Shown here piece by piece: positions 25,357 to 32,515 of a stretch of 39,999 bases of DNA; position 1 is the stretch's first letter, and the number at the start of each line of letters is the position of its first letter. Both the position numbers and the translations under genes were made by a program. This DNA comes from a bacterium. Its GTDB lineage: Bacteria > Actinomycetota > Aquicultoria > Aquicultorales > Aquicultoraceae. The stretch spans positions 1-39,999 of the forward strand of contig CADDYS010000009.1 in assembly GCA_902810715.1 (NCBI GenBank), read 5' to 3'. The notes under the pieces were generated by a model. It did not search any database. It worked only from the letters and a program-made list of their open reading frames with translations, and was not told where the DNA came from.

Positions 25357-26892
25357 ATGAATGATTTCCAGACAGTTTTAGTAGTTGATTACGGGGCTCA
25401 GTACGCGCAGCTTATTGCGCGGCGTGTGCGCGAGTGCAAGGTCTATTCTGAGATAGTTCCGCACGATATATCAATCAAAGAGTTAAAGGCGAAAAATCCG
25501 AACGGGCTCATTTTCTCAGGTGGGCCTGCAAGCGTATATGCAGATAACGCTCCATCCGCCAACCCTGCATTTTTTGAGCTTGGAGTTCCTATTCTGGGTA
25601 TCTGCTACGGCATGCAGCTTATGGCACACTCGCTTGGAGGTGAAGTAGCACGCACAGGTAACAGAGAATACGGCAAGACCAACCTAGCTGTGGATAATGG
25701 CGAGGGCTTATTTAAGGATGTACCACTTGGGCAGATTGTTTGGATGAGTCACCAAGATGCGGTTAAAACAGTGCCCGAGGGATTTGGGGTATCGGCCCAC
25801 ACAGGTGGCTCGCCGGTTGCCGCTATGGAAAACCCCGAGAAGAAATTTTACGGTGTACAGTTTCATCCAGAGGTAATGCATACCGTATATGGAATGGATA
25901 TTCTTAAAAACTTCCTATACGATGCTTGCGAGTGCGTACCCAACTGGACGATGGTCTCTATCATCGAGGATGCCGTAGCTAAGATAAGACAGCAGGTTGG
26001 CGACAATAAAGTAATCTGTGGCTTAAGCGGTGGGGTTGACTCATCCGTTGCCGCAATCCTGGTCCACAAAGCAGTTGGCGATAATCTGACCTGTATTTTT
26101 GTCGACCATGGCCTTCTTCGCAAGGGAGAGGCCGAGAAGGTCGAGGAAGCATTTAGAAGGCACTTCCGCATAAATCTAATCCATGTCAAAGCGCAGGATC
26201 GGTTCTTAGAAAAGCTAGCAGGCGTAACTGACCCTGAGCGTAAGCGAAAGATCATAGGTGAAGAGTTTATCCGGGTTTTTGAGGAAGAAGCGGCTAAGTT
26301 TCATGATGCCAAGTTCTTAGTCCAGGGAACTCTTTACCCGGATGTTATTGAGAGCGGCACGCGCAATGCCGCAAGGATTAAGACTCATCACAACGTCGGT
26401 GGTCTGCCGGAGGACATGGTATTAGAGCTTGTCGAGCCACTTCGCGCGCTTTTTAAAGACGAGGTACGTGCGGTCGGCGAGGAGCTGGGTTTGCCTGACG
26501 AGATCGTCTGGAGACACCCATTCCCTGGCCCTGGGCTTGCCGTGCGCATAATCGGTGAGATAACCGAAGAAAGGCTCGGGGTTCTTCGCAACGCGGATGC
26601 GATCTTTGAGGAAGAAATTAAGCGGGCCGGGCTTTACCGATCAATTTGGCAGTCGTTTGCGGTTCTCCCGGCGATAAAAAGTGTCGGCGTTATGGGAGAT
26701 GAAAGAACGTACGCCTATCCGGTTATTTTAAGGGCTGTAACCAGTGAGGATGCGATGACCGCCGACTGGGCAAGAATCCCATATGATGCGCTAGAAAAAA
26801 TTTCTAATCGTATAATAAATGAAGTTGACCACGTAAATCGCGTGGCATACGATATTAGTTCCAAGCCTCCGGCGACGATTGAATGGGAATAA
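25357..26892 (+). CDS. guaA: GMP synthase (glutamine-hydrolysing)
   Basis: Protein of 511 aa, full length, converting XMP to GMP. The class I glutaminase domain (1-190) has Cys83 (GICYGMQ), His170 and Glu172 (FHPEV). The ATP pyrophosphatase domain has the PP-loop SGGVDSS (224-230), and the dimerisation domain ends in the conserved KPPATIEWE. It lies 7 nt after guaB3; the chorismate mutase gene starts 13 nt after its stop, making one purine-aromatic operon. Confidence 0.98.
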
Positions 26893-26905
26893 TAGGAGGA
26901 CAACA

Positions 26906-27178
26906 ATGAGCGAGGAAGCAAAGCGCCAAATAGATGAGTTGCGCAAAAAAATCGATGTTATTGATGGCCACCTGGTTGAGAAGCTAAATGAGAGAGCGGG
27001 ACTCGCGCTCGAAATCAGAAAAATTAAAGCGGAGAGCAAGTTGCCTCTTTATGACCCGGGAAGAGAGGAAGATATCTTCCAAAAGATCACATCGGTAAAC
27101 AACGGGCCCTTATATGACGATGATTTAAGAGTGATATATGAGACCATTCTGCATGCGATGAAGAATGTTGAATCGTAG
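26906..27178 (+). CDS. aroQ: Chorismate mutase, AroQ class
   Basis: All-helical protein of 90 aa that converts chorismate to prephenate for Phe/Tyr. The fold signature IDELRKKIDVIDGHLVEKLN, the ALEIRKIK helix and DPGREEDIF match AroQ. The ATG at 26906 has AGGAGG upstream; an earlier in-frame ATG (26879) lies inside guaA and is unlikely. The DAHP synthase gene follows after 10 nt. In Bacillus these two domains are one fused protein; here they are separate adjacent genes, so the mutase may bind DAHP synthase as a regulatory subunit. Confidence 0.9.
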   Translation: MSEEAKRQIDELRKKIDVIDGHLVEKLNERAGLALEIRKIKAESKLPLYDPGREEDIFQKITSVNNGPLYDDDLRVIYETILHAMKNVES

Positions 27179-27188
27179 GTGGATTTGA

Positions 27189-27953
27189 ATGATTTCAAAC
27201 GGTGATTTAACAATTATCTCCGGCCCTTGTGCGGTTGAGAGCCGCGAGCAGGTTATGGAAGTAGCAAAGACAATTTCCGAGATCGGCCTTACCTATTTGA
27301 GAGGCGGGGCTTTCAAGCCAAGGACGTCGCCTTACAGCTTCCAGGGTCTTGAAGAAGAAGGTTTGAAATATCTGTCAGAAGCTGCAGATGCCTATGACTT
27401 AAAAGCGGTAACCGAGGTTATGGATACCGAGCATGTCGCTTTGGTTCTAGAGTATGCGGATATTATCCAAGTCGGTACGCGCAACATGGCCAATTTTGCA
27501 CTTCTAAAGAAGATCGGAAAGCTTACATCCGAAAACCATATCCCCGTGCTTCTAAAAAGAGGCATGTCCGCAACCATCGACGAGTGGCTGCTGGCGGCCG
27601 AGTATATTACTACTGCAGGCAATCCAAACGTTATTCTCTGCGAAAGGGGAATTAGGACTTTTGAGACCGCAACTCGTTTTACCCTTGATTTAGCTGCGGT
27701 TCCTGTAATAAAGAAGCTAAGCTCACATCCGATAATCGTGGATATAAGCCATGCAATGGGACACAGCGACTATATCATTCCAATGAGTCGTGCTGCTGCC
27801 GCTGTGGGCGCTGACGGTCTTTTAATCGAGGTGCATCCCAATCCTAAGAAAGCCCTTTGCGACGGTGCACAATCTTTGACACCGGATCAATTAAGACAGT
27901 TGGTAAGAGAAGTTAGAGCAGTAGCTGAAGTTGTTGGAAAGCGCGTGGTCTAA
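27189..27953 (+). CDS. aroF: 3-deoxy-7-phosphoheptulonate synthase (type I beta, core only)
   Basis: TIM barrel of 254 aa catalysing the first step of the shikimate pathway from PEP and erythrose 4-phosphate. The metal/PEP motifs include [10 protein letters not shown] (Cys14), [39 protein letters not shown] and [13 protein letters not shown]. It lacks the N-terminal ferredoxin-like regulatory domain of Thermotoga-type enzymes, and its length fits the core-only form of Pyrococcus. The adjacent AroQ gene may supply feedback control. The convergent antiporter gene ends 10 nt downstream and no terminator is visible between them. Confidence 0.95.
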
Positions 27954-27963
27954 TATAACTATG

Positions 27964-29169
27964 CTATCCTTCTTCACCCAAATCTCCTTCTAAATATAAT
28001 GCTTTTGCATGATCTCCTGGTTCAGGCAAAAGATGTTTGGGCAAAAAAGCAAATCCGGCGATAAGGGTTGGCACAACTGCACTAGCAATAACCGTTGCTA
28101 CAAGAAAAGAGTATTGTGCTTGGTTTACAATCCCGTGAGAAAGACCATAAAGTGCTGAGATTGTACCAAATGTTAATCCGGTAGACATCATTAGAGTGTA
28201 GTACCATTTTTCATTACGCTCACTCCGAAACATCCCAACGACAGGATATAGGCCGAAGATCTTCGATACCACTTTTGCTAATATCAATGCTAGAAAGACA
28301 AATGGAGCTCCGATTAGAGCAGGTAGAGAAACAAAAGTTCCCGCGCGTATAAAATAAAAGGGGGTAAGGAATCCTACCGTTAAAGTCCGTAGGCGTCGGA
28401 TCCACGAATCATCATTTTTAGAAAATTCAGCCAAAGTCATGCCAATGAGATATGCGGGGAGTACCGCTTCACTGCCAGACCAAACAGCCAGAACGCCTAG
28501 ACCGAAAAGAATTAGCATGATCCATTTTGTCCTGATCGCGGCAGTTCTGTAAGCATAGATTTGGGTTAGCCAACGAGAAAGAAATGGCAACGTTGATAGA
28601 ACAGCAATGGTTGCAGCTATAAAAATAACGGTTTTATATGTAAATGGTGCAAATATAAGACCCAGTGCGATAACTGTTCCGAGGTCATTTATAAAGCAAG
28701 CCCCAAGAATTCCTTTGCCAAACTCGGTTTTGTTAAATCCGGTCTCCAGCATAACTGCATAGACGACTGCCATTGAAGTTGTGGAAAGCGCCACGCCGGC
28801 TAACAAACTAGCCCGTAGTGTCCAGCCAATTATATAATGTGCGATTACTGTGCTGCCAAGAAACGGTGCAAAAAAACCAATTAAGCCAACAACAGATACT
28901 TCTTTTAACTTCTTTTGCATTACCTCTCGCTCAAGTTCAGCTCCGGCCAGGAAAGTCAGCAAGATAGCCCCGGATGAAGCAAGAAAACTTAGCCATTGTT
29001 GATTTGAGCCCAAAGCTTCAAATTTACCAAGATAAGTAGCTATGGCAGCTACAACTACTCCAACGCAAATTTCTATTAATGCAATTGAGATGCGTAAGTG
29101 GTAAGCAAGAACGGCTGAAATGACAGCCAGCCCAAGCCATATGGATGCCACGATATAAATTTGCTCCAT
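27964..29169 (-). CDS. Cation:proton antiporter (CPA2 type) behind a fluoride riboswitch
   Basis: Integral membrane protein of 401 aa with about 12 helices. Conserved CPA motifs are TFLAGAELE (72-80) and an Asn161-Asp162 pair in ACFINDLGTVIALG, the ion-binding signature of Na+(K+)/H+ antiporters. The family exchanges monovalent cations for protons at the cytoplasmic membrane. The leader of this gene is a fluoride riboswitch (29232-29315), and CPA antiporters are a known class of fluoride-riboswitch-controlled genes, so a role in fluoride tolerance is likely. Whether it moves fluoride or restores pH/Na+ balance is unknown. The ribosome site is weak (AAAGG at some distance). Confidence 0.9.
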   Translation of the reverse strand: MEQIYIVASIWLGLAVISAVLAYHLRISIALIEICVGVVVAAIATYLGKFEALGSNQQWLSFLASSGAILLTFLAGAELEREVMQKKLKEVSVVGLIGFFAPFLGSTVIAHYIIGWTLRASLLAGVALSTTSMAVVYAVMLETGFNKTEFGKGILGACFINDLGTVIALGLIFAPFTYKTVIFIAATIAVLSTLPFLSRWLTQIYAYRTAAIRTKWIMLILFGLGVLAVWSGSEAVLPAYLIGMTLAEFSKNDDSWIRRLRTLTVGFLTPFYFIRAGTFVSLPALIGAPFVFLALILAKVVSKIFGLYPVVGMFRSERNEKWYYTLMMSTGLTFGTISALYGLSHGIVNQAQYSFLVATVIASAVVPTLIAGFAFLPKHLLPEPGDHAKALYLEGDLGEEG

Positions 29170-29231
29170 GTTATTCTATCACTGCCTTTCTTTGCTTTTT
29201 AACCTTTTAGGGGAGATGCTATAAGTTAACA

Positions 29232-29315
29232 TAAAAAAGCTCCTACAGCCCTATAAGGTCCTGTAGGAGCTATTAGCAAACATGCTTTTGCATATACGGC
29301 GAGCTCCATCGCCAT
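29232..29315 (-). promoter_or_regulatory. Fluoride (crcB-type) riboswitch upstream of the antiporter
   Basis: Read on the minus strand: the P1/loop element GGCGATGGAGCTCGCC (29313 to 29298), a short joining hairpin GCAAAAGC, then GCTAATAGCTCCTAC, all features of the fluoride aptamer as in the Pseudomonas syringae crcB RNA. The CTCCTAC strand is then reused in a terminator stem AGCTCCTACAG/CTGTAGGAGCT (29261-29271 with 29238-29248) followed by T6. Fluoride binding should prevent termination and switch on the antiporter. The loop GATGG/CTCC pseudoknot partners are intact. Confidence 0.93.
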
Positions 29316-29331
29316 TATTGCTTATTAAAAG

Positions 29332-29360
29332 ATATTAACGGGTATTAACATAAATGTCAA
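29332..29360 (-). promoter_or_regulatory. Promoter of the antiporter riboswitch transcript
   Basis: On the minus strand the consensus TTGACA (29355-29360) and TAATAT (29332-29337) are 17 nt apart, 19 nt before the aptamer. Confidence 0.85.
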
Positions 29361-29362
29361 GC

Positions 29363-29378
29363 ATACCTGGCCAGGTAT
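29363..29378. promoter_or_regulatory. Perfect 16-bp palindrome between divergent fluoride-riboswitch promoters
   Basis: ATACCTGGCCAGGTAT lies 2 nt from the -35 box of the minus promoter and 14 nt upstream of the -35 box of the plus promoter. It has the form and place of a shared protein-binding site. No local regulator gene was identified. Confidence 0.5.
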
Positions 29379-29392
29379 TTTTAGGGACTCGA

Positions 29393-29421
29393 TTGACGGC
29401 ATCCCAAGTTATATTTATACT
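29393..29421 (+). promoter_or_regulatory. Promoter of the dynamin-like operon
   Basis: TTGACG (29393-29398) and TATACT (29416-29421) are 17 nt apart, 21 nt before the second fluoride aptamer. Confidence 0.85.
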
Positions 29422-29442
29422 TATCTTTTAAAATGAATATGA

Positions 29443-29512
29443 ATGCGATGGAGCTCGCATATATCGCCACAGGGCTGATAGCTCCTACGGAATTGCGTAG
29501 GGGCTATTATTT
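29443..29512 (+). promoter_or_regulatory. Fluoride (crcB-type) riboswitch upstream of the dynamin-like gene
   Basis: ATGCGATGGAGCTCGCAT (29443-29460) is the P1/loop element; GGGCTGATAGCTCCTAC (29472-29488) is the conserved 3' aptamer half. The stem ATAGCTCCTAC / GTAGGGGCTAT (29478-29488 with 29497-29507) competes with the aptamer and is followed by TATTTG, a weaker U-tract than in the left copy, so control may be by termination or by access to the ribosome site 20 nt downstream. Apart from the antiporter aptamer opposite, the 357-nt gap 29170-29526 contains no genes. Confidence 0.9.
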
Positions 29513-29526
29513 GTGGGGTGGTTTAT

Positions 29527-31287
29527 ATGTCGATTAATTATGCAGAGGCGAGAGCAGAGATACTTATGATTTTAGGTGAGCTTAAAGCAAGCTTGAATCA
29601 TGATGATTCGCTTGGGAATAGTAATATGCTTGAGTATGCGCTTGAAAAACTTACAGATAACAAATTCAACCTGGTGGTAATGGGTGAGTTTAAACGGGGT
29701 AAAACATCGTTTATTAATGCGTTGCTCGGCGAAGCCGCGCTACCGGTGGCCGTGGTCCCGCTTACCTCAATTATAACCGAACTAATCTACGGGGATACTC
29801 CTTCAGCAGAGGTCATTTTTGAAAACGGCCAGAGAAAGACTGTATCTCTTGAGATGCTTAACGATTATGTAACAGAGCGTAGGAATCCCAACAACGAAAA
29901 AGGTGTTAAGAAAGTTATCGCAAAGTATCCTTCTGAGTATTTGCGTGAGGGTGTTATTCTGGTCGATACTCCGGGTGTCGGCTCGATCTACGAGCACAAT
30001 ACCGAGGTTTCCTACGACTATCTGCCTGAGGCCGATGCTGTTATATTTCTGGTCTCTTCTGACCAGCCGATAAGCAAGGCCGAGCTCGCATATCTTATCG
30101 ACATTAAGGAGTATATAGATAAAATCTTCTTTATCCAAAATAAGATTGACTACTTATCCGAGAGCGAGCGAAAAGAGTCCCTGGAATTTAGCAGAAAAGT
30201 TCTAGAGCAGACACTGGGCGGCGGTGTTACCCTGATACCGCTTTCTGCGAGGCTGGCTCTTCAGGCCAGGCAGAACGGTAACCAGGAGATGCTTCTTCAA
30301 AGCAACCTACCCGAGTTTGAGCGCGAGCTTTCAGAGTTTTTGCTTAAAGAGAAGGGTCTGCTTATATTAACTGTTGCGATTAACCGCGGTCTGCAGGTTA
30401 CGAACAACATTCTGCGGCACATCGAGCTTGAGCTTAAATCGCTTGAAGCTCCCATCGAGATTATTGAAAAACAGTTGGGGGATTTCAAAAAATATGTCGA
30501 GCAAATCGAGCGCAAGCGACTTGATGCCCACTATCTAATGAAAGGCCAGCTCGGCGAGTTAATCAAGCAGTATGACGAAGACACGGAGGGCTTAAAAAAA
30601 GAAAAGTTGCCGGAGGCGATTAAAGAGCTCGATGAAGCCTTTGAAAAGGTAAAGGCCGGACCAAAGGGGCAAATTTCAGATGCCCTGGACGATGCCGTAA
30701 AAAGTATTATTCTTTCGGTGTTTACTCGTTGGCGAAGCGAACAGGAGAAAAAAGTCTCTGCCGGTTTTGAGGATATTGCAAAGCGCCTTATCGACGAGAC
30801 CAACGGTATCGCTCAAGAAATTGTTGACAAGGCATCCGATATATTTGGCCTTTCACTTTCGCAGATTGTAGGTACGGTTATGCTGATTGACAGCAAGTGG
30901 TTCTATTATATGTCTAAAGAAGCATCAACCAGTATAGAATTGCTTGCCGCTCCCGTTAAGAGTATACTTCCCAAGGTATTTGCTGCAAAAGTGATGTACG
31001 CAGATGCCAAAGAGAAATTAATAAGGTATTTTGATATGCATTGCGGGCGCATTCGGGGCGACCTTTATGCAAGGCTGGATGACAGTTTGCTTGCATTAAA
31101 AGGAATGCTCGATGAGCGTGTAACGGAGATGATATCAAGCATAGAGTCGGCCGTCACAAGAGGCCTTGAGTATCGGCAGAAAAATGAGGTTGAGATACAG
31201 AAAAGAAAACTTGAACTTGAATCCTACAAGGAAAGAATTGAGAGAATTGAGCTGGAGTTGACCTCATATGCAAATAAAATTGGATAG
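29527..31287 (+). CDS. Bacterial dynamin-like GTPase under fluoride-riboswitch control
   Basis: Protein of 586 aa. The GTPase domain (about 45-290) has P-loop GEFKRGKTS (53-61), switch Thr80 (VPLTS), DTPGVGS (147-153) and NKID (205-208), the pattern of bacterial dynamin-like proteins. The C-terminal half is helical with coiled coils; a hydrophobic stretch around 440-480 may be the membrane paddle. ATG 29527 is preferred (GGGGTGG upstream); a GTG at 29518 is in frame. Family members remodel or repair membranes. The gene is first after a fluoride riboswitch and overlaps the MFS gene by 20 nt, so a role in the fluoride response is expected; such a link is not one I know of. Confidence 0.9.
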   Translation: MSINYAEARAEILMILGELKASLNHDDSLGNSNMLEYALEKLTDNKFNLVVMGEFKRGKTSFINALLGEAALPVAVVPLTSIITELIYGDTPSAEVIFENGQRKTVSLEMLNDYVTERRNPNNEKGVKKVIAKYPSEYLREGVILVDTPGVGSIYEHNTEVSYDYLPEADAVIFLVSSDQPISKAELAYLIDIKEYIDKIFFIQNKIDYLSESERKESLEFSRKVLEQTLGGGVTLIPLSARLALQARQNGNQEMLLQSNLPEFERELSEFLLKEKGLLILTVAINRGLQVTNNILRHIELELKSLEAPIEIIEKQLGDFKKYVEQIERKRLDAHYLMKGQLGELIKQYDEDTEGLKKEKLPEAIKELDEAFEKVKAGPKGQISDALDDAVKSIILSVFTRWRSEQEKKVSAGFEDIAKRLIDETNGIAQEIVDKASDIFGLSLSQIVGTVMLIDSKWFYYMSKEASTSIELLAAPVKSILPKVFAAKVMYADAKEKLIRYFDMHCGRIRGDLYARLDDSLLALKGMLDERVTEMISSIESAVTRGLEYRQKNEVEIQKRKLELESYKERIERIELELTSYANKIG

Positions 31288-32515
31288 AGCGCAGCAACCA
31301 GCAAATAAAAAAATCTTTGGCTTCTCAAGAAATGTTTTCTTTCTCGGACTGGTTTCTCTTTTTACAGATATCTCTACCGAGATGATTTATCCGCTAATTC
31401 CGATATTTCTGACGACAATTCTTGGGGCGCCGGTTGCTGTCGTTGGCCTTATCGAAGGTATTGCTGAATCAACCGCAAGCGTTCTTAAGGTCTTCTCTGG
31501 TTGGCTCTCAGACCGCCTTCGTGGACGAAAGAAACTTACCGTTATAGGATATGGGCTTGCAGCGCTTGGAAAACCGATACTTGCTCTGTCTTTTGTTTGG
31601 TGGGAAGTGCTAATCGCCCGATTTGTCGATAGGTCTGGAAAAGGTGTAAGGACCTCGCCAAGAGATGCTTTAATAGCTGATTCGAGCAGTAGCGAAGAGT
31701 ATGGCAAGTCTTTTGGCTTTCACCGAAGCATGGACACATTTGGTGCTGCCTTTGGGCCCTTGCTTGCTTTTGCAGTATTGCCGCTGCTTCATAATAATTT
31801 TAGGGCGTACTTTAGTCTGGCAATCATCCCGGCATTTATCGGGGTTGCCGTTCTTGTCTTGTTTATTAAAGAGAAAGCAGGAACGGTTAAGCTCGCGAAC
31901 ATAAAACTCAGCCTCAAGCCTTTTGATAGATCATTTAAACTGTTTTTATTGGTAGTGCTGGTGTTTACTATCGGTAACTCAAGCGATGCTTTTTTAATTT
32001 TAAGAGCAAGAAATGTCGGCGTTGCCATTGTCTTTATTCCGCTTATCTACTTCGTCTTTAATATGGTTTATGCTGTTGCCTCAACACCCATCGGTTCTCT
32101 ATCTGATCGAATAGGAAGAAAAACAGTAATTATTGCCGGATATCTAATATTTTCCCTGGTTTATCTCGGCTTTGCTTTGGTTAAAAGTCCCTTTACTATC
32201 TGGCTTCTATTTGCCGCCTATGGCCTGTATTATGCATTTACAGAAGGTATCTTTAAAGCTTTTACTGCCGATATCGTCCCCAGTAATTTGCGAGGAACGG
32301 CATATGGCTTTTTAAATCTGGTTCTTGGCATCGCGCTTCTGCCCGCAAGTCTTATCGCCGGTTTTCTCTGGGATAAGATAAACCCAAGCGCACCGTTTTT
32401 CTTTGGAAGCGCCATATCGCTGTTAGCGTTGATTATTTTTATCCTTTTAATTCCGGGCGATGGCAAGAAGAGATTACCGCATGAAATTGAAGGGTTGCCG
32501 GAAGCCGATATCTAG
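31268..32515 (+). CDS. Major facilitator superfamily transporter
   Basis: Membrane protein of 415 aa with 12 predicted helices. Motif A GWLSDRLRGRKKL follows helix 2, a second copy GSLSDRIGRKTVI follows helix 8, and DRSGKGVRTSPRDALIADSS is a conserved loop of a drug/solute-efflux subgroup. The ATG overlaps the end of the dynamin-like gene by 20 nt, so the two are translated from one fluoride-controlled message. The substrate is unknown; export of fluoride or a fluoride-linked ion is possible but untested. Confidence 0.9.
   Translation: MQIKLDRAQQPANKKIFGFSRNVFFLGLVSLFTDISTEMIYPLIPIFLTTILGAPVAVVGLIEGIAESTASVLKVFSGWLSDRLRGRKKLTVIGYGLAALGKPILALSFVWWEVLIARFVDRSGKGVRTSPRDALIADSSSSEEYGKSFGFHRSMDTFGAAFGPLLAFAVLPLLHNNFRAYFSLAIIPAFIGVAVLVLFIKEKAGTVKLANIKLSLKPFDRSFKLFLLVVLVFTIGNSSDAFLILRARNVGVAIVFIPLIYFVFNMVYAVASTPIGSLSDRIGRKTVIIAGYLIFSLVYLGFALVKSPFTIWLLFAAYGLYYAFTEGIFKAFTADIVPSNLRGTAYGFLNLVLGIALLPASLIAGFLWDKINPSAPFFFGSAISLLALIIFILLIPGDGKKRLPHEIEGLPEADI

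Follow-up and report, generated by a model that had tools for sequence, protein, structure and literature searches.

Divergent fluoride riboswitches point to a putative dedicated fluoride-response family of dynamin-like GTPases in the Actinomycetota

The window, by which we mean the whole stretch of 39,999 nucleotides analysed here, derives from a bacterium of the Aquicultoraceae (contig CADDYS010000009.1). Exactly two Rfam 15 matches at the gathering threshold were identified in this 40-kb window with cmscan, both to the fluoride riboswitch model RF01734. The two aptamers point outward, with 112 nt between them, and are flanked by genes for an antiporter on one side and a dynamin-like protein followed by a transporter on the other:

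27964..29169, minus: CPA2 (Na+/H+ exchanger fold) antiporter gene, 401 aa (PF00999, E=6e-29)
29271-29238, minus: left terminator hairpin, 11-bp stem, followed by TTTTTATGT; T-tract at 29237-29229
29257-29322, minus: left fluoride riboswitch aptamer (RF01734, 38.6 bits, E 2.3e-7 for the window)
29360-29332, minus: left promoter, TTGACA-17-TAATAT
29393-29421, plus: right promoter, TTGACG-17-TATACT
29435-29494, plus: right fluoride riboswitch aptamer (RF01734, 37.5 bits, E 5.6e-7 for the window)
29479-29506, plus: right expression-platform hairpin, 11-bp stem reusing CTCCTAC, followed by TTATTTGTG
29527..31287, plus: dynamin-like GTPase gene, 586 aa from ATG (PF00350, E=2e-28)
31268..32515, plus: MFS transporter gene, overlapping the end of the dynamin gene in the same operon (PF07690, E=8e-43)

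A sequence-only reading of this DNA had placed two outward-facing crcB-type aptamers on these strands, and the covariance search of both strands agrees with it, since both matches are full length (1-64 of 64) and exceed the gathering score of 34 bits. A scan of the whole 2.43-Mb genome yielded no third copy of RF01734. Both aptamers contain the pseudoknot between GGAG in the loop and CTCC in the 3' strand, and their sequence, structure, pseudoknot and overlapping terminator are the same as in the RF01734 class, for which a covariation model of the whole switch including the overlapping terminator has been described (PMC13273304). The two predicted switches are ordinary members of the known fluoride (crcB) class, and we infer fluoride binding and termination at both leaders from the riboswitch family. 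The locus differs from the usual RF01734 loci in that two copies are arranged in close divergent orientation, one of them putatively controlling a dynamin-like GTPase.

The near-consensus promoters proposed in the same reading are also present at the coordinates given there, one for each aptamer. Both are of the sigma-70 type, match the consensus at 10 of 12 bases with 17 nt between the boxes, and are kept in the sister species G007. The start sites expected from the -10 boxes lie about 3 nt (left) and 7 nt (right) before the aptamers, which is the position expected for transcriptional riboswitches. A perfect 16-bp palindrome, ATACCTGGCCAGGTAT, is located between the two -35 boxes at 29363-29378. 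It was rejected as a shared operator, because it is absent from G007 at that place, and the genome contains a single further near match to it, the same number as for the reversed control.

The CUCCUAC strand of each aptamer doubles as the 5' arm of an 11-bp hairpin, so that the proposed reuse of this strand by an expression-platform stem was found on both sides. The left terminator is strong, whereas the right terminator is weaker with an interrupted T-tract, and termination there may therefore be weak. The right hairpin stem was also identified in G005, G006, G007, G009 and G010, mostly with longer T-tracts. The predicted design of both leaders is that of the usual fluoride ON switch. Downstream of the right hairpin, a Shine-Dalgarno-like GTGGGGTGG lies just upstream of the dynamin gene start, and an alternative in-frame GTG start is located at 29518.

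The Pfam matches support the suggestion of an antiporter on one side and a dynamin-like/MFS operon on the other. The nearest solved structure to the antiporter is NapA (4BWZ, E=2.4e-12), with which it shares the family and fold of the CPA2 Na+/H+ antiporters. It differs from NapA in its location behind a fluoride switch and in its ion site, which has Asn-Asp (INDLGT) where NapA has Asp-Asp, a substitution that suggests electroneutral exchange in the CPA2 family. The chorismate mutase and DAHP synthase genes adjoining the antiporter (26879-27953) form a block without a switch of its own; chorismate mutase is reported to be common in the neighbourhoods of fluoride exporters (PMC11139923). On the other side, the MFS gene also follows the dynamin gene in G005, G006, G007 and G009, and a chromate-transporter-like gene is located 165 nt after it. 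MFS proteins resembling the one in the window were observed after CrcB-DUF190 or behind a fluoride switch in another family (L063 in G193, L075 in G383 and L065 in G256), and this MFS group may thus represent a fluoride-response transporter.

To place the divergent pair in context, we surveyed 12 genomes from the order and 396 from the phylum for RF01734, which was found in 90 genomes. Outward pairs less than 250 nt apart were identified in seven genomes, six in the first survey (G000, which carries the window, G007, G006, G018, G066 and G103) and one in a later sample (G408); one of the two aptamers falls short of the gathering threshold in G006, G066 and G103. Thus, the layout is unusual, as had been suggested, but it is not unique. 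G007 retains the whole arrangement of the window with both aptamers, both promoters and both hairpins, and its antiporter behind the same switch is about 89% identical. In G408, which belongs to another family (f38), the pair likewise has a CPA2 antiporter on one arm, 40% identical to that of the window, and a dynamin on the other. The recurrence in an unrelated family makes more than one origin of the layout probable. The pair in G006 leads into a hydrogenase/NADH-dehydrogenase-like operon on one arm and CrcB-DUF190 on the other, and the dynamin is located behind a separate switch 8 kb away.

We also considered the possibility that the aptamer pair is a relic of a duplication, with only one copy still switching. 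The two aptamers share a core, the right terminator is the weaker one, and decay of this kind is seen in G010, where a fluoride switch precedes the remnant of an antiporter gene (L024:2048-2400). However, we find this very unlikely, given that both copies, their promoters and their hairpins are kept in G007, and that right-copy orthologues precede the dynamin in six of the six genomes of the window's family carrying it.

Other arrangements of fluoride switches were recorded in the survey. The divergent aptamers in G018 (L086:7568-7731) are only 41 nt apart, and their promoters must therefore overlap or lie inside the aptamer DNA. A gene for a 147-aa protein without a Pfam match is located on the right arm. 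Fluoride islands were found in G103:C39, with six riboswitches within about 20 kb on both strands (L094, L095), and in G051:C89, with five within about 10 kb (L079). A candidate tandem aptamer in G010 was rejected, because the first switch precedes the antiporter remnant and reflects gene decay. The first gene downstream of a fluoride switch in G006 (L019:1543-2259, minus) and in G066 (L089:431-1186, minus) encodes DUF6062 (PF19538), which also occurs near such switches in several other genomes, albeit as weaker matches. It is possibly another overlooked fluoride-switch target.

The control of a dynamin/MFS operon had been regarded as part of the oddity of the locus, which was not borne out. 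In a reverse test, a profile built from six Aquicultorales dynamins was searched in the 396 Actinomycetota genomes, and the region upstream of each match was inspected. Among the top 30 matches (at least 148 bits), 29 begin shortly after a fluoride switch, the exception being G066. The covariance model found 28 of these switches, and one was found by eye in G133, where a recognisable aptamer at the contig end was not scored by the model. None of the 14 lower-scoring, more distant dynamins of the same phylum has a fluoride switch within about 2 kb, a difference (29/30 vs 0/14) with p=1e-10 in Fisher's exact test, not corrected for relatedness. Fewer than 0.01 linkages are expected by chance placement. 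Several relatives have aptamers of 22-33 bits, short of the gathering score. A second sample of 299 fresh genomes provided 11 new dynamin relatives, nine of them with the switch directly upstream; in G446 about 500 nt separate the switch from a broken reading frame downstream of it, and in G438 it is found only downstream of the dynamin. A further search of the class retrieved no previously unseen genomes.

The members of this dynamin family span about 13 family-rank groups, and those outside the window's own family are 24-38% identical to the window dynamin. In the phylogeny, 22 switch-linked dynamins form one group with support 87/88, and the remaining ones fall in two further, only loosely placed lineages; several branches of the tree are long. 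Much of the linkage could have been vertically inherited within each family. Of the 117 phylum switches examined, 28, including six from the window's own family, have the dynamin as their first gene, making it commoner in this position than the antiporter and rarer than CrcB. Across the phylum, the dynamin-like gene thus emerges as a regular target of fluoride switches, and we consider this a more important result than the divergent layout. The genome is placed in the order Ca. Aquicultorales, and relatives of its dynamin among the GTDB records include Ca. Aquicultor secundus. A contig scan combined with a dynamin alignment recovered four loci, all from Aquicultor relatives, as can be explained by its narrow patterns, and plasmid records contained only distant dynamins (<35% identity), with no match covering 80% of the query.

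Across the 117 phylum switches, the pseudoknot pairs are GGAG/CTCC in 34, GAAG/CTTC in 25 and GAGG/CCTC in 7, and GGGG/CTCC and GAGG/CTTC also occur, indicating changes on both sides, i.e., covariation. Of 27 dynamin-linked switches, 26 contain a switching hairpin that reuses the pseudoknot strand, and in 21 a T-rich tail follows it; the loose 6-bp criterion for such hairpins is satisfied by 40% of shuffled sequences, and the observed stems are mostly 9-13 bp. In G+C-rich genomes such as G018, the hairpin has no T-rich tail, and an AGGAG in its 3' arm precedes the start codon, which suggests translational control by the same strand.

The genes that accompany the dynamin vary, with genes in the G+C-rich genomes read by six-frame profile searches. 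Antiporter and dynamin are transcribed divergently in G000, G007 and G408, lie head to tail in G005, G074 and G388, and share an operon in G409, G421, G452 and G462. In G074 and G388, the CPA2 gene has its own switch beside the dynamin, and in G005 the dynamin is accompanied by CPA2 and a universal stress protein. The MFS transporter is the partner in the Aquicultorales, and in G284 and G356 the dynamin occurs with a hydrogenase-like NuoH, with CrcB-DUF190 upstream. Taken together, the data point to a putatively dedicated, fluoride-induced family of bacterial dynamins in about 13 families, often near a CPA2 antiporter or CrcB.

The window protein resembles solved bacterial dynamins. Profile comparison with proteins of solved structure places it nearest to Nostoc BDLP1 (best PDB match BDLP 2J68, E=1.7e-52), a Campylobacter dynamin and IniA. 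The Dynamin_N domain (PF00350) was identified in 28 of 28 aligned family members, in which G53, K56-K59, T80, D147-G150 and D208 are invariant and N205 nearly so. The P-loop, the switch Thr, the DxxG and the N/TKxD motifs are intact. An AlphaFold model (mean pLDDT 80.5) displays a GTPase domain and a long trunk of antiparallel helices of 60-70 residues, with a flexible tip at the place of the BDLP paddle, where confidence is low (about 441-473; pLDDT <50 at 448-473). Foldseek searches with the model recovered IniA and BDLP with E ~1e-20, with TM-scores of only ~0.5, as these molecules are hinged. The G1-G4 GTPase domain and, in the model, the antiparallel helical trunk and flexible tip are shared with Nostoc BDLP1 (2J68/2J69) and mycobacterial IniA (6J72), whereas the window protein, of ~590 aa, belongs to a separate clade and is predicted to be under fluoride-riboswitch control. 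No transmembrane segment was predicted in the window dynamin, nor does the most hydrophobic stretch of the trunk (436-454) correspond to one, and with its tip modelled at low confidence, a membrane action would be an extrapolation from the dynamin family.

Among stress-related bacterial dynamins, DynA of Bacillus subtilis is involved in membrane surveillance and phage tolerance (PMC8844932). The window dynamin is likely a functional analogue, although DynA is a double dynamin and the window protein a single one. We know of no riboswitch for B. subtilis DynA. Our tentative suggestion is that the most likely role of the window dynamin would be to tether, patch or reshape the cytoplasmic membrane under HF or acid stress.

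Metal-fluoride complexes trap GTPases. Another hypothesis is that the dynamin is itself a fluoride-sensitive target, in which metal-fluoride mimics the gamma-phosphate and traps the enzyme, so that the cell makes more of it. The intact GTPase motifs would agree with this, as would the frequent location of the fluoride-inhibited enzymes enolase and pyrophosphatase behind fluoride switches (PMC11139923). Yet the distant dynamins of the phylum have the same GTPase chemistry and are not found behind fluoride switches. Furthermore, the dynamin is usually present in one copy per genome and apparently induced by fluoride only, leaving no house-keeping enzyme to rescue, and we consider this explanation unlikely.

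Rather than mending the bilayer, the dynamin might act on transport, by clustering or stabilising the antiporter, the MFS transporter or CrcB, or by export through vesicles. This would fit with its recurrent linkage to CPA2, MFS and CrcB genes in several orders, but shared regulation by itself could produce such linkage. Nor are the partners constant, and the dynamin often stands by itself behind the switch in f27 and f43. We therefore judge a transport role to be somewhat unlikely, and tentatively retain a role at the membrane itself.

The sequence-only reading had noted no crcB or CLC-F gene nearby, and this extends to the genome as a whole: crcB (PF02537) was not found anywhere in the assembly (98% complete, 153 contigs), and the single CLC has the chloride-type GREGP and none of the CLC-F signatures GNNLI/GMGLI, GREGT/V and GEVTP as quoted in PMC11139923. 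CrcB is likewise missing from a total of ten switch-carrying genomes (G000, G005, G007, G009, G010, G408, G074, G388, G322, G178), and no CLC-F motif was seen in their CLCs. Within the window's family, CrcB and the switch-linked CPA2 alternate, which suggested that CPA2 replaces CrcB. These observations would be expected if CPA2 was the fluoride exporter in crcB-less genomes and the dynamin an accessory. As a general rule, however, replacement fails, because nine genomes with a switch-linked CPA2 also carry CrcB (G036, G061, G116, G272, G339, G409, G421, G452, G462). Moreover, CPA2 has a cation/proton antiporter fold, and a role of antiporters as partners in pH homeostasis is accepted (PMC11139923). 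We thus find an exporter function for CPA2 quite unlikely.

The interpretation that we favor, with a probability of about three in four, is that two independent fluoride ON switches facing outward co-induce a CPA2 antiporter and a dedicated fluoride-response dynamin with its MFS partner. It builds on the switch class, the layout, the promoters, the hairpins and the dynamin-switch linkage, all of which are established at the sequence level. The back-to-back promoters would fire the two switches independently. In the absence of fluoride, the CUCCUAC strand in each nascent leader would pair downstream to form the terminator hairpin and transcription would stop, whereas with fluoride the strand would be kept in the aptamer pseudoknot, no terminator would form and both arms would be transcribed together. 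The CPA2 arm may then correct acidification or ion imbalance as HF enters, and the other arm would provide the GTPase of the fluoride-dedicated family and the MFS transporter. A broader possibility, to which we assign somewhat less than even odds, is that this dynamin family is ancient in the Actinomycetota, guards the membrane or its transporters against HF and, together with CPA2, supports survival without CrcB and CLC-F.

Previously described targets of fluoride switches include antiporters, formate hydrogenlyase, enolase, pyrophosphatase and others (PMC11139923). A full-text literature search found no paper joining the fluoride riboswitch with a dynamin, and the matches for crcB with dynamin and for fluoride with bacterial dynamin-like proteins were off topic by title; the founding study (Baker et al., 2012) and its gene tables were outside this comparison, and priority for the dynamin target is therefore unproven. 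What appears to be new relative to the known fluoride response is chiefly the dedicated dynamin, together with the divergent pair.

Known defences against fluoride consist of exporters, antiporters and over-made target enzymes. If our interpretation is correct, a fluoride-switched membrane-remodelling GTPase in about 13 bacterial families would represent a new arm of this defence, and the bacterial dynamins, whose roles are mostly obscure, would gain a defined natural inducer. It would also give a clue to how cells that have neither CrcB nor CLC-F withstand fluoride. The dynamin looks like an overlooked part of fluoride survival in these and related bacteria.
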